Shown piece after piece: positions 6,017-30,196 of a DNA stretch of 64,000 nucleotides. The DNA comes from an uncultured Bacteroidales bacterium (GTDB lineage: Bacteria > Bacteroidota > Bacteroidia > Bacteroidales > UBA932), in contig CAJONI010000026.1 of the NCBI GenBank assembly GCA_905235995.1, positions 17,757-81,756 on the forward strand, read 5' to 3'. The notes below the pieces were generated by a model, which saw only the letters and a program-made list of their open reading frames with translations, made no database searches and was not told the origin of the DNA. The translations under genes were made by a program, and so were the position numbers. Numbering within the stretch: the first letter of the stretch is position 1; every line of letters starts with the position of its first letter.

Positions 6017-7909
6017 ATGAAGAAGCTATTTGTATATTTCGGAATATTGCTGACGCTTGTCCTTTCGGGTACGGTTTCGGCATGTATTGAAGACGTAACG
6101 ATCGAGGAAAACCTCGGGTTGAACATCAAGGTGTTCTTCCCGACCAAGGTGGTCCCCGGCGTCCAGATGACCATCAACGGTACTGGCTTCAAGGATGTCA
6201 AGGAGATCATATTCCCCGGCGACGTCCGTGTCACCGACTTTGAACTTGTCGGCGGCGAGATGATCCGTGTCACGGCGCCCGTCGGCTTCTCGGCAGAGGG
6301 CGGATCGCTCGTCCTGCGTTCGAACGACGAAGAGGCTGTGTCCAGGCTGCCGCTCACCCTTGGAAAGACCGAGATTTCCGGTTATTCCAAACAGGACGGT
6401 GAAAGTATCCAGGGCGGAGACCAGCTCACCATCTACGGAACCGACCTTGAATTCATCAGCAGCGTGGAACTGCTCGATGCCGAGGGCAATCCGGATATTA
6501 TCAAGGATGCCAAGTTCTACCGCAAGGGTACGAGTTCAGTAATCATCTACATCCCGAAGAAAGTCTATGACGGTACTTTCGTCGGCAAGGTCCATACCTT
6601 CGACGGAAGGGTGTTCGACATGCCGGAGCTGACCTACGAACCGAAGTCCGAAGGCGGCCACTGGGAGACTGTGAAGACGACCATCTGGAAGAATGACGGC
6701 TCGCATGGTGAGGTCGCCTGGGACGGCACCTACCGCTTCTCTTCCGAGGAGAGATCCACCGGTGAAGAGATATTCGCAATCCCGATGGACCACTGGGAAG
6801 CCATGAAGGAAGGTACGTTCTACATGCTTGCCAAGGGCAGCGACTGGGTGCAGATGCGCATCACCACCGGCTGGTGGAGCACCACATGGACCGGTGAAGA
6901 CATCTCCACCGGCAATGAGCGCATCATCGACAACGGCGACGGTACCTACTACATCGAAATCAACTTCGAAGGCGACCCGATCGTCGACATGATCGATGAA
7001 CAGCACCTGCTCTTCACCGGCAGCGGATTCACGCCGCTAGAACTCTACTTCTCGGAAGACATCTGGGTTGACGACGGCGGCCACTCGGAAATCGTCAGGA
7101 CTTCCATCTGGAAGGGCGACGGTTCCGCCGGTGCGGTCAGCTGGTCCGGCCAGTACCGCTTCGGGCTTGAAGGCCACGACGGCAACAATGAGTGTATCGC
7201 CACATTCTCCCAGGATATATGGGACAAGCTCAAGAGCGAGACCTTCTACCTGCTGCTGGAGTCCGCCGATCCTCAGATCCGAGTCACCACCGGCTGGTGG
7301 AGCACCACCTGGACCGGCGAGGACATCATGCCCGGCAATGAGCGTATCATCGACAACGGCGACGGCACCTTCACCCTGACGGTCAACCTGAGTGAAGACG
7401 ACGCGATACTGTCCGTCCTGGACGAACAGCACCTGCTGTTCACAGGTGACCGGTACACTCCGCTGGAAATTTACTTCGAGGAAGAGATATGGGTAGAAGG
7501 TGGAGGAGACTCCAAGGAAGAAGTGGTATTCTGGCAAGGCGACGGCTCTGCCGGAGAAGTCAACTGGAACGGCGTCTACCGTTTCGGCCTCGACGGCCAT
7601 GACGGCAACAACGAATGTATCGCAACATTCCCCCAGGAAATCTGGGATGTCATCAAGTCAGGTACATTCTACTTGCTCGCACAGGGCAGCGACTGGGTGC
7701 AGATGCGCATCACCACCGGCTGGTGGAGCACCACCTGGACCGGCGAAGACATCTCCACCGGCAATGAGCGCATCATCGACAACGGCGACGGCACCTACTA
7801 CATCGAAATCAATTTCGAAGGCGACCCGATCCTCGACCTGCTGGATGAGCAGCACCTGCTCTTCACCGGCAGCGGCTTCACGCCGTTGAAACTCTACTAC
7901 CTCAAATAG
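6017..7909 (+). CDS. Surface glycan-binding protein (SusE-position; IPT/TIG-like N-terminus plus three tandem C-terminal modules)
   Basis: Lipoprotein-type signal (LSGTVSACIED); IPT/TIG-like repeats; three ~140-aa repeats each with TTGWWSTTWTGEDI and NERIIDNGDGT; position after SusC/SusD. Confidence 0.75.
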   Translation: MKKLFVYFGILLTLVLSGTVSACIEDVTIEENLGLNIKVFFPTKVVPGVQMTINGTGFKDVKEIIFPGDVRVTDFELVGGEMIRVTAPVGFSAEGGSLVLRSNDEEAVSRLPLTLGKTEISGYSKQDGESIQGGDQLTIYGTDLEFISSVELLDAEGNPDIIKDAKFYRKGTSSVIIYIPKKVYDGTFVGKVHTFDGRVFDMPELTYEPKSEGGHWETVKTTIWKNDGSHGEVAWDGTYRFSSEERSTGEEIFAIPMDHWEAMKEGTFYMLAKGSDWVQMRITTGWWSTTWTGEDISTGNERIIDNGDGTYYIEINFEGDPIVDMIDEQHLLFTGSGFTPLELYFSEDIWVDDGGHSEIVRTSIWKGDGSAGAVSWSGQYRFGLEGHDGNNECIATFSQDIWDKLKSETFYLLLESADPQIRVTTGWWSTTWTGEDIMPGNERIIDNGDGTFTLTVNLSEDDAILSVLDEQHLLFTGDRYTPLEIYFEEEIWVEGGGDSKEEVVFWQGDGSAGEVNWNGVYRFGLDGHDGNNECIATFPQEIWDVIKSGTFYLLAQGSDWVQMRITTGWWSTTWTGEDISTGNERIIDNGDGTYYIEINFEGDPILDLLDEQHLLFTGSGFTPLKLYYLK

Positions 7910-7930
7910 TCTGAGAGTTGTAAGGAATTG

Positions 7931-7961
7931 AAGGCTGGCCGTTTGGCCAGCCTTCTTTTTT
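7931..7961 (+). terminator. Rho-independent terminator after the SusCD/SGBP operon
   Basis: AAGGCTGGCC-GTTT-GGCCAGCCTT perfect 10-bp stem followed by CTTTTTT. Confidence 0.9.
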
Positions 7962-28012: not shown

Positions 28013-28152
28013 GCCTCCCCGCTGCGCCGCCCCCTTGGACGCGAACGCGATCCAGGCGCCGCTTGATGCTTCTCGCGTCCAGCTTCTTCGGGAATCCGAC
28101 ATGAGGCTGGACGCGAAATGCATGGTATGGACAAACGATGTGGCTCGCGTCC
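28013..28152. repeat. Palindromic REP/BIME-like repeat, copy A (140 bp)
   Basis: Same length as, and 133/140 identical to, 30057-30196; contains TCGCGTCCAGC...GCTGGACGCGA and outer GGACGCGA/TCGCGTCC inverted repeats. Lies 43 bp past the stop of the RAYT-like gene. Confidence 0.92.
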
Positions 28153-28195
28153 GGGAGATTGGATAAAGCAGATGAGCCTGTTCGCATATAAGAAA

Positions 28196-29134
28196 CTACT
28201 TCAGGCAGAGGCACCGTTTAAGTTGCGCTTCGGTAGTCTTCTTCTTCAGCGTCTTCCATAGGTTACGGCTGATGAGGTCGAAAAGGAAGGAGCGTTGTGA
28301 AACAGTTGTCTCGTAGATGGTTGCTCCGCGGAAGTATTTCGGGAGACAGCGTTCGTCTATAAGCTGGCAGAGTTCGAGGTCGGAAATCCGGTTCGGGTCG
28401 TGTTTACCATTCTCGTTCTTCAAAAGTTGGGTGAGGTCGAAGTCAGGCATGCCCTTTTCAAGCAGATCCAGCGTGATAAGAGGGCTTGACGATTTTTCCG
28501 CCTGCTGATCCCGGAGCGAGGTCTCGTCGCCTATCCTGTTCATCTGGTACAGAAAGTTGCGTGGAGTCACATATATGGCTTCTACTTGTGCCACGTCCAG
28601 TATGTCTTCCCTCAGAAGCATGCCTGACGCGTCCATCCGAAAACTAACTGGGATGTGTACGCCTCGTGGAATATACTTGTATCGCTGGTCGTCAGGCAGT
28701 AATGAAATCGGCGACCGCTTTCCGAGTTGGCGTGAGAAATACGCATTGGCTGAGCAATACCGATATCCGAAAGGGGTGGAGGAGATGCCGTGGTGAAGTC
28801 CCTGCCGATTTACATAGTTGAGGGCAGCCAGAGTGTGGTGATAGCCTTCTACTTCCAGGATAAATCCGTACTTCTCAGCCAGTCTTCCACGACGCTTGTA
28901 CTTTGGATTGAAAGACCGGGCATAGGAATAGCGCGCTCGGTACAGTACTTCTTCCGGGGCATCCGTTTGCAACAATCCATGGAAGTGGGTTGAAGGAAAG
29001 CCGTCGGCTAAAAGCCGCGAGTCGGTTTCCAGAGTAGCCAGCGCCAGGGAATTGAAGCCTCGTACCAGGTCTGCTTCGCTTCGGAACAGGACTTCGTCAG
29101 GAGAAGATAGAGAAATGTGATAAGTCTTTCTCAT
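28196..29134 (-). CDS. Diverged Y1 (HUH) transposase of the REP-associated tyrosine transposase (RAYT/TnpA_REP) type
   Basis: TYHISLSSPDEVLFRSEAD; HUH motif PSTHFHGLLQT; YARSFNPKYKRRGRLAEKYGF; ALNYVNRQGLHHGI matching the YIHxNPVRAGL tyrosine motif position; then a long unassigned C-terminal extension. Confidence 0.75.
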   Translation of the reverse strand: MRKTYHISLSSPDEVLFRSEADLVRGFNSLALATLETDSRLLADGFPSTHFHGLLQTDAPEEVLYRARYSYARSFNPKYKRRGRLAEKYGFILEVEGYHHTLAALNYVNRQGLHHGISSTPFGYRYCSANAYFSRQLGKRSPISLLPDDQRYKYIPRGVHIPVSFRMDASGMLLREDILDVAQVEAIYVTPRNFLYQMNRIGDETSLRDQQAEKSSSPLITLDLLEKGMPDFDLTQLLKNENGKHDPNRISDLELCQLIDERCLPKYFRGATIYETTVSQRSFLFDLISRNLWKTLKKKTTEAQLKRCLCLK

Positions 29135-29279
29135 TGCATTTCGTTTTTTTCATTACACAAATCGTTCGCACTTTTTCGCCCACCGCGTTCTTCCGCATCA
29201 GACGAAATGCTTGTCACGAAGGTAAGGAGTTTTCCGCAGAAAATGTAAGAAAGACTGATGTTCGAGGGGAAAGTGTCTA

Positions 29280-29327
29280 TATTAATATTCAAAATGTATA
29301 TAATTGTATGCATTTTGTAAATTAATA
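29280..29327. promoter_or_regulatory. Imperfect 17-bp inverted repeat immediately upstream of a -7 box
   Basis: TATTAATATTCAAAATG - 14 nt - CATTTTGTAAATTAATA (15/17 pairing), followed by TATCTTTG at 29330-29337. Confidence 0.55.
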
Positions 29328-29366
29328 TATATCTTTGTTGTAGAAAACAAATAATCAATTCCGACC

Positions 29367-29843
29367 ATGAAATCATTAAAAATGCTTCCTTATAGTTGGA
29401 AGGTAGTCGGCTGGGTGTTGCTGTCGCTCTGCGTGCTTCTTTTTTCGGTCTGCTTCAGGGCAATCGCCCATGAACTGTTCTGGACTTCGTACAAACCCGA
29501 TGCTTTCGGTGCGGGTTGGGCAAGTTTGGTAGTCGAGCTCCTTTTTTGCATAGCTCCCATACTTATAGCCTTCTCGCAGGAACGGGAAGAGGATGAACGT
29601 ATTTCCGTCTTCCGACAGCAGGCGCTGGTACGGACGGTCATCCTCTATGTTATAATCATAATCCTTAGTGCCCTCAGCAACTGGATTCTGTCTCATCTGC
29701 TCCAGGACAAAGACACGTTCGTGCATATAATGGTGATAAAGAAATATTTTACATCCCTTCCGGCGTTCATCCTGTACTATCTGTTGATTTTCAAAGTATC
29801 TTTATGGTCGGATAACAAAAAACTCTTACGCGATGAAGAATAA
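29367..29843 (+). CDS. Hypothetical 4-TM membrane protein, partner of the downstream XRE regulator
   Basis: Four hydrophobic segments; stop overlaps the start of the XRE gene (29833). Confidence 0.65.
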   Translation: MKSLKMLPYSWKVVGWVLLSLCVLLFSVCFRAIAHELFWTSYKPDAFGAGWASLVVELLFCIAPILIAFSQEREEDERISVFRQQALVRTVILYVIIIILSALSNWILSHLLQDKDTFVHIMVIKKYFTSLPAFILYYLLIFKVSLWSDNKKLLRDEE

Positions 29844-30042
29844 TATACGTGTAGAACGTGCGCGTGTACGTATGTCTCAACAAGAGTTGGCCGAAAAGGC
29901 TGGTGTCATCCGGCAGACCATCGCTGCCATAGAACAGGGACGCTTCAATCCCTCCACGGTGCTGGCCCTGAAAATCGCCCATATATTCGGCCTGACCGTG
30001 GAACAACTCTTCGAACTGGAAGAATCCGATTGGAATAAATAA
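29833..30042 (+). CDS. Small XRE-family HTH transcriptional regulator
   Basis: IRVERARVRMSQQELAEKAGVIRQTIAAIEQGRFNPSTVLALKIAHIFGLTVEQLFELEE. Confidence 0.93.
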   Translation: MKNNIRVERARVRMSQQELAEKAGVIRQTIAAIEQGRFNPSTVLALKIAHIFGLTVEQLFELEESDWNK

Positions 30043-30056
30043 ACGTTGCCATCCGC

Positions 30057-30196
30057 GCCTCCCCGCTGCGCCGCCCCCTTGGACGCGAACGCGATCCAGG
30101 CGCCGCTTGATACTTCTCGCGTCCAGCTTCTTCGGGAATCCGACCTGAAGCTGGACGCGAGATCCATGGTATGGACGAACGATGTAGCTCGCGTCC
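30057..30196. repeat. Palindromic REP/BIME-like repeat, copy B (140 bp)
   Basis: Contains a perfect 16-bp stem TCTCGCGTCCAGCTTC - ttcgggaatccgacct - GAAGCTGGACGCGAGA; direct-orientation copy of 28013-28152. Fills the gap between the XRE stop and the Ntn hydrolase stop. Confidence 0.92.

Follow-up and report, generated by a model that had tools for sequence, protein, structure and literature searches.

A Y1/HUH transposase-like gene bracketed by paired palindromes in Bacteroidales, a probable variant of the REPtron theme

The locus and its protein

The window, by which we mean the whole 64,000-nucleotide stretch of DNA that was analysed, carries a gene for a Y1/HUH transposase-like protein and, on either side of it, a long repeat built of palindromes. 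Two further genes lie between the HUH gene and one of the repeats. The features are as follows.

28013..28152, no strand: repeat A, 140 bp, lying 3' of the HUH gene; 28037-28152 is its 116-bp core, and the other 24 bp form a GC-rich tail
28037..28080, no strand: palindrome A1, 44 nt
28109..28152, no strand: palindrome A2, 44 nt, starting 72 nt from the A1 start
28196..29134, minus strand: Y1/HUH transposase-like protein, 312 aa, with H50/H52, Y107, Q111 and an all-alpha C-terminal extension
29136..29144, minus strand: leader inverted-repeat arm ACGAAATGC, directly 5' of the ATG
29202..29210, minus strand: leader inverted-repeat arm GCATTTCGT, at -76
29367..29843, plus strand: membrane protein, 158 aa, weakly DUF4199-like, enclosed between the HUH gene and repeat B
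29833..30042, plus strand: HTH_3 regulator, 69 aa, enclosed between the HUH gene and repeat B
30057..30196, no strand: repeat B, 140 bp, on the 5' side of the HUH gene, direct relative to A; core 30081-30196
30081..30124, no strand: palindrome B1, 44 nt
30153..30196, no strand: palindrome B2, 44 nt, starting 72 nt from the B1 start

The initial annotation had described two 140-bp copies in direct orientation that differ at 7 positions, a distance of 43 bp from the stop of the HUH gene to the start of repeat A, and a gene with a Y1-type signature. All of this is confirmed: the copies lie at 28013-28152 and 30057-30196, and the minus-strand reading frame at 28196-29134 is open and includes both HFH and NYVNRQGLHHG. 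The 116-bp core common to the repeats consists of two imperfect 44-nt palindromes with 28 nt between them, their starts lying 72 nt apart, and each of the four palindromes at the locus has GGACGCGA at its start and TCGCGTCC at its end. How often does such a palindrome occur in the genome? The pattern GGACGCGA-N24-32-TCGCGTCC has exactly four matches in 1.96 Mb, namely A1, A2, B1 and B2, and its backward control has none; BLAST of the element against its own genome finds no third copy. The genome is a 1.96-Mb draft estimated to be 88% complete, so that a few copies may be missed, though hundreds cannot. With only four palindromes of this sequence, there is no dispersed REP population of the host-locus type in the genome. 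The aligned elements, read for a GTAG or GT[AG]G tetranucleotide at the foot of the hairpin, give no GTRG consensus, and an Rfam search of the locus gives no match. Elsewhere in the window (6777-7935) an apparently repetitive coding sequence shows three imperfect direct repeats at 423-426 bp intervals.

What kind of protein do these repeats enclose? The 312-aa protein matches no family in Pfam, PF01797 included, or in NCBIfam, and a comparison with solved structures by sequence only returned chance matches and nothing meaningful. The AlphaFold2 model, computed from 61 aligned relatives, has a mean pLDDT of 92.3 and a pTM of 0.91. Its top match in the PDB is 4er8 (E 4.4e-4, probability 1.0), the E. 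coli REP-associated transposase TnpA_REP on a REP hairpin, and the IS200, IS608 and ISDra2 transposases come next. The structural check of the fold thus finds the Y1/HUH core, with TnpA_REP on its hairpin as the closest relative in shape. H50 and H52 of the HxH motif, and Y107 and Q111 of the YxxxQ motif, are invariant among the 61 relatives. The tyrosine motif reads YxxRQ; the Y---NP of class 2 is absent, and the Y---Q--HH of TnpA_Y1 subclass 1.2 is present.

Past the core, from about residue 140 to residue 312, the model is all-helical. A long C-terminal extension had been singled out as unusual; it is real, but it is not peculiar to this protein, as it is found in every close relative and, in part, in remote homologues from the same genome. 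One of these aligns over residues 2-194, and another has a PF01797 match barely above the cut-off. By eye, the C-terminal end TEAQLRRCL has been likened to the first helices of the terminal helix-turn-helix of a remote homologue (QIARVCGIS). The remote homologue L068 (G000:C68:701-1567; 289 aa, YVQMN motif, PF01797 match) has flanking palindromes of its own of ~39 nt, which suggests that flanking palindromes may predate the 312-aa subfamily.

The two enclosed genes run opposite to the HUH gene. The same membrane protein/HTH_3 pair (window 29367-30042; 58% / 93% identical) is also present at G195:C1:149565-150240 and G104:C15:40252-40927, where it adjoins a different HUH paralogue, an arrangement that suggests exchange between units. 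At other loci, in a subclade (L129, L136, L138, L145, L154 and, in a shorter form, L147), a ~190-230-aa protein is encoded directly upstream of the HUH gene on the same strand. The L145 protein, the one tested, has weak GcrA and Myb-like domain matches. The gene lies inside the element pair wherever both elements were seen, and its product is a possible partner of the HUH enzyme. The HUH-gene leader itself contains an inverted repeat, GCATTTCG at -76 and CGAAATGC ending just before the ATG, which is conserved in many paralogues. The structure that RNAalifold predicts has 8 pairs, 3 of them with compensatory changes, and could mask the start region of the mRNA.

A family of genes with cognate elements

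Of 300 genomes drawn from the host's GTDB family, 136 contain relatives of the protein at E 1e-5 or better. At greater distance the A2 profile was passed, at E 1e-15, only by the host's own genome and by a second genome from its family among 294 genomes of the order, and, at E 1e-12, only by its own genome among 297 of the phylum. Those relatives that have names are metagenome bins of Bacteroidales, for the most part from rumen or other animal-gut samples, and include Candidatus Cryptobacteroides. The plasmid and phage collections searched hold no relatives of the HUH gene. Up to seven relatives per genome were found among the matches listed, and the paralogues in the host's own genome share 68% and 52% identity with the query. 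Near-identical paralogues within one genome were not seen, though assemblies could collapse identical copies.

Do the relatives also have flanking palindromes? A matching repeat lies upstream and downstream of the gene at 49 of 70 named loci, versus 1 of 94 cross-locus control comparisons, so that the repeats are not due to chance; at the other 21 loci no matching pair was detected in the flanks that were searched. Among the 49, a direct match is found at 39 and an inverted match at 16. The geometry of the elements was examined by a scan for two ~44-nt palindromes with common arms, the start-to-start distance being left free between 66 and 78 nt. The 70 named loci yielded 119 elements, with a distance of 72 nt in 91 and 71 nt in 12 (103 of 119 together), and elements flank the gene on both sides at 42 loci. 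The proposal of a cognate pair thus holds well beyond the host locus, as a recurring arrangement of HUH gene and flanking palindromes. Upstream of the gene, L157 and L178 have chains of three palindromes with a 72-nt period, which amount to overlapping elements and resemble BIMEs. At G195:C1:166449-166777 a ~66-bp tandem repeat, with copies about 82-91% identical, follows right after the downstream element.

The geometry is kept while the stem sequence varies. The arm consensus differs widely among loci (GGACGCGA.., GGACGCTCGGTCC, CCACAGAATG, GCGACGCAGA, CACGGTATG and others), and single arms agree at 90% with the consensus of their own locus. Pairing at stem positions 3-13 is found in 79-100% of 58 elements that are under 80% alike, versus 55% expected, and G-C, A-T and C-G pairs are all common at several positions. 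Stem and protein distances are correlated (r 0.38, 0/999 permutations), a correlation that common ancestry alone could yield. The partial correlations with stem distance are 0.16 for the HUH core and 0.14 for the C-terminal region, and so do not discriminate between them as the source of specificity.

The two copies within a locus are more alike than either is to its counterpart in another species. Upstream and downstream elements are 94, 97, 97, 93, 86 and 81% identical at six orthologous loci (the last pair inverted). When upstream elements of different species are compared with each other, or downstream ones, identity is mostly 60-80%, except in two closely related species pairs. This likeness is compatible with concerted evolution, with renewed copying and with host recombination.

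Confinement of the elements and comparison with known systems

The initial annotation had proposed a dispersed REP/BIME population, and this is not supported. Besides searches, we scanned 853 kb of DNA from 8 species, two of them near-identical, for the geometry regardless of sequence, and found 29 elements against 0 in a Markov-shuffled control; one of the two window elements fell below the threshold, so the scan undercounts. Other spacings were seen only twice, at 50-51 nt. Of the 29 elements, 23 lie less than 600 bp from a family gene and 28 less than 2.5 kb, with a single one at 9.3 kb. In the host's own genome, the C10 paralogue has its element in two copies, and the C34 paralogue has two copies plus some partial matches elsewhere. 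One relative's 400-kb contig carries a few extra element copies, mostly 2-25 kb from a family gene. A genome with only two copies, and gene-bearing relatives with none, had been named as the case contrary to a REP/RAYT system: the first half describes the host genome, but the second does not describe the relatives, which do carry elements.

How does the arrangement compare with characterized systems? With the RAYT/TnpA_REP REPtron (E. coli rayT, 4er8) it shares the HUH/Y1 fold, the best structural match, low copy number, a gene bracketed by cognate palindrome doublets of the REPIN/BIME kind, and sequence-divergent paralogues each with its own repeats. Unlike that system, it has a 116-bp element of two 44-nt palindromes at a fixed 72-nt pitch, no GTAG foot, no dispersal, YxxxQ rather than YxxxNP, and a long C-terminal region. 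The Marinomonas REPtrons Ma and Mb have canonical GTAG REPs concentrated near the tnpA gene, and have been read as recent arrivals (PMC8266576). The repeats described here are likewise near the gene, but their confinement recurs in many species, and canonical GTAG REPs are absent.

Quentin et al. 2018 sort Y1 proteins into classes (PMC6006769). Their TnpA_Y1 subclass 1.2 has the Y---Q--HH motif, is found in Bacteroidetes at low copy, is short (median 148 aa) and is reported without REPs (PMC6006769); the present protein is like it in tyrosine motif, phylum and copy number, and unlike it in being 312 aa long and flanked by palindromes. Subclass 2.6, mainly of Bacteroidetes, has YIH[QN]NP, a median length of 179 aa, and 'atypical secondary structures' that flank the genes and recur at other places in the genome; class 3, from other phyla, also has flanking 'atypical secondary structures', with a Q-type tyrosine motif and a CnGA foot (PMC6006769). 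Flanking structures are common to both and to the present family, which departs from 2.6 in its Q-type motif, its 312-aa length and the lack of copies elsewhere, and agrees with class 3 in the Q-type motif but not in foot or phylum. In a profile comparison the match to subclass 1.2 (E 1.9e-4) is as weak as that to class 2 (E 2.1e-4), which leaves the placement undecided; divergence is too large for a tree. In the TIRYT/TIRtron systems a Y1 gene has flanking terminal inverted repeats, many with GGGGWSAS (PMC3733652). There, as here, long repeats that are not REPs flank a Y1 gene; here they are mostly direct repeats of double palindromes. In the literature compared, Bertels et al. 2017 apart, we came across no 44-28-44 element.

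The nature of the module

The arrangement is real, recurs through the family and has clear limits; it is a variant on the REPtron theme, and not a REP/RAYT system in the strict sense: of the REP/RAYT proposal, the Y1/HUH fold and the cognate flanking palindromes stand, but the dispersed population and the GTAG foot do not. We favor, with a probability of about 0.72, a REPtron-like module in which a domesticated, low-copy Y1 enzyme, a single-strand endonuclease/ligase, is bracketed by a pair of its own recognition elements. This reading is drawn from computation, that is, from the fold, the motifs, the cognate flanks, the fixed geometry, the covarying stems, the similarity within loci and the non-dispersal. 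Against it are the missing GTAG guide, the undispersed state of the element copies, the fixed 72-nt spacing, which could point to duplex binding, and the 21 of 70 loci where the flanks searched gave no matching pair; the similarity within loci could also come from host recombination between direct repeats.

A tentative alternative, which we think has a smaller though appreciable chance of being right, is that these genes form an undescribed HUH family with private elements: up to seven paralogues per genome, each with its own stem, all with the common 44-28-44 geometry, and maintained in place. Such a family would represent a third lifestyle, between that of an insertion sequence and that of a RAYT that spreads REPs. 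The enzyme would then possibly form an ordered complex on two palindromes at the 72-bp pitch.

Might the unit instead be a low-copy insertion sequence? In that case the elements would mark its two ends, left and right, in the manner of IS200/IS605, and the whole bracketed unit would be excised and reinserted by the enzyme, sometimes with cargo genes. The positions of the genes lend this some appeal. HUH genes lie in variable zones that adjoin a conserved block (GltX-RpiB-TruB plus cell-wall genes; BlaI-M56-TPR-TonB receptor), and their site and orientation beside this chromosomal frame differ by species. Of 21 pairs of orthologues 80-95% identical, 11 have a neighbour in common on one side or more and only 1 on both, and at several loci the elements enclose extra genes. 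Two close relatives, at G227:C120:57893-60670 and G236:C19:35092-45530, whose HUH genes are 91% identical, are set apart by what looks like an inversion; one of its breakpoints falls between the HUH gene and the downstream element, which adjoins the TPR gene. Against this, a search for clean empty sites at the intergenic site w50319/w50943, by comparison of flanks across 130 loci and contigs, and upstream of BlaI turned up none. Homology to relatives does stop ~13 bp before repeat A, but it stops at the same point in relatives without the unit, and so is no proof of insertion. The missing plasmid and phage matches and the lack of near-identical copies within one genome also speak against a mobile unit. 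The ends of IS200/IS605 are distinct short hairpins. The present unit has a Y1 fold and one gene with palindromes at both ends, as they do, but its ends are long, near-identical repeats with 116-bp elements, and there is no clear sign of transposition of the unit, which may nevertheless occur. We consider the insertion sequence unlikely.

Still more doubtful is the proposal that the elements control the gene as operators on duplex DNA, as terminators or as insulators, and that the protein is a DNA-binding regulator whose HUH activity is incidental. The fixed 72-nt spacing and exact palindromy would suit a dimeric protein on duplex DNA, the usual distance of the elements from the gene is 67-310 bp on the upstream side and 6-170 bp on the downstream side, the conserved leader repeat suggests regulation, and the C-terminal region looks, by eye, like a truncated helix-turn-helix. 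However, the catalytic residues are invariant, so that nuclease activity is likely kept, and the upstream element can be more than 1 kb off behind other genes, as at the host locus. That the repeats are relics of a past REP population, alike only through ordinary recombination, is very improbable: in its favor, copies are few, and some genomes have extra nearby and partial copies, but the ~50 family ORFs examined are all intact with invariant motifs, and geometry is fixed and stems compensated across unrelated stem sequences.

How would the REPtron-like module work? Known HUH enzymes of the Y1 fold bind hairpins, cut a strand with a tyrosine, and rejoin strands (PMC6006769, PMC8266576). The present enzyme most likely binds its palindromes as hairpins once they become single-stranded during replication or transcription, and Tyr107 would nick beside the hairpins. 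We infer that the enzyme would rejoin strands between the two element copies, which would keep the copies alike while the stem sequence drifts together with the enzyme; the bracketed segment may occasionally be shifted or inverted locally. A 72-nt pitch, ~seven helical turns, is not needed for recognition of a single hairpin, and suggests that both palindromes are read jointly, perhaps as duplex. Unlike classical RAYTs, the HUH module has not seeded copies genome-wide. As to the benefit to the cell, our guess is that it may lie in self-maintenance and local rearrangement rather than spread.

The family bears on the open question of how insertion-sequence transposases gave rise to housekeeping RAYTs, and of how enzyme and palindrome co-evolve. 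It offers many parallel enzyme/element pairs in related gut and rumen Bacteroidales genomes. Because the stems change while the geometry is constant, the determinants of specificity could be mapped by swapping. A REPtron-like architecture can persist across many species without genome-wide spread, so that the upkeep of a flanking pair of elements is separable from their proliferation.
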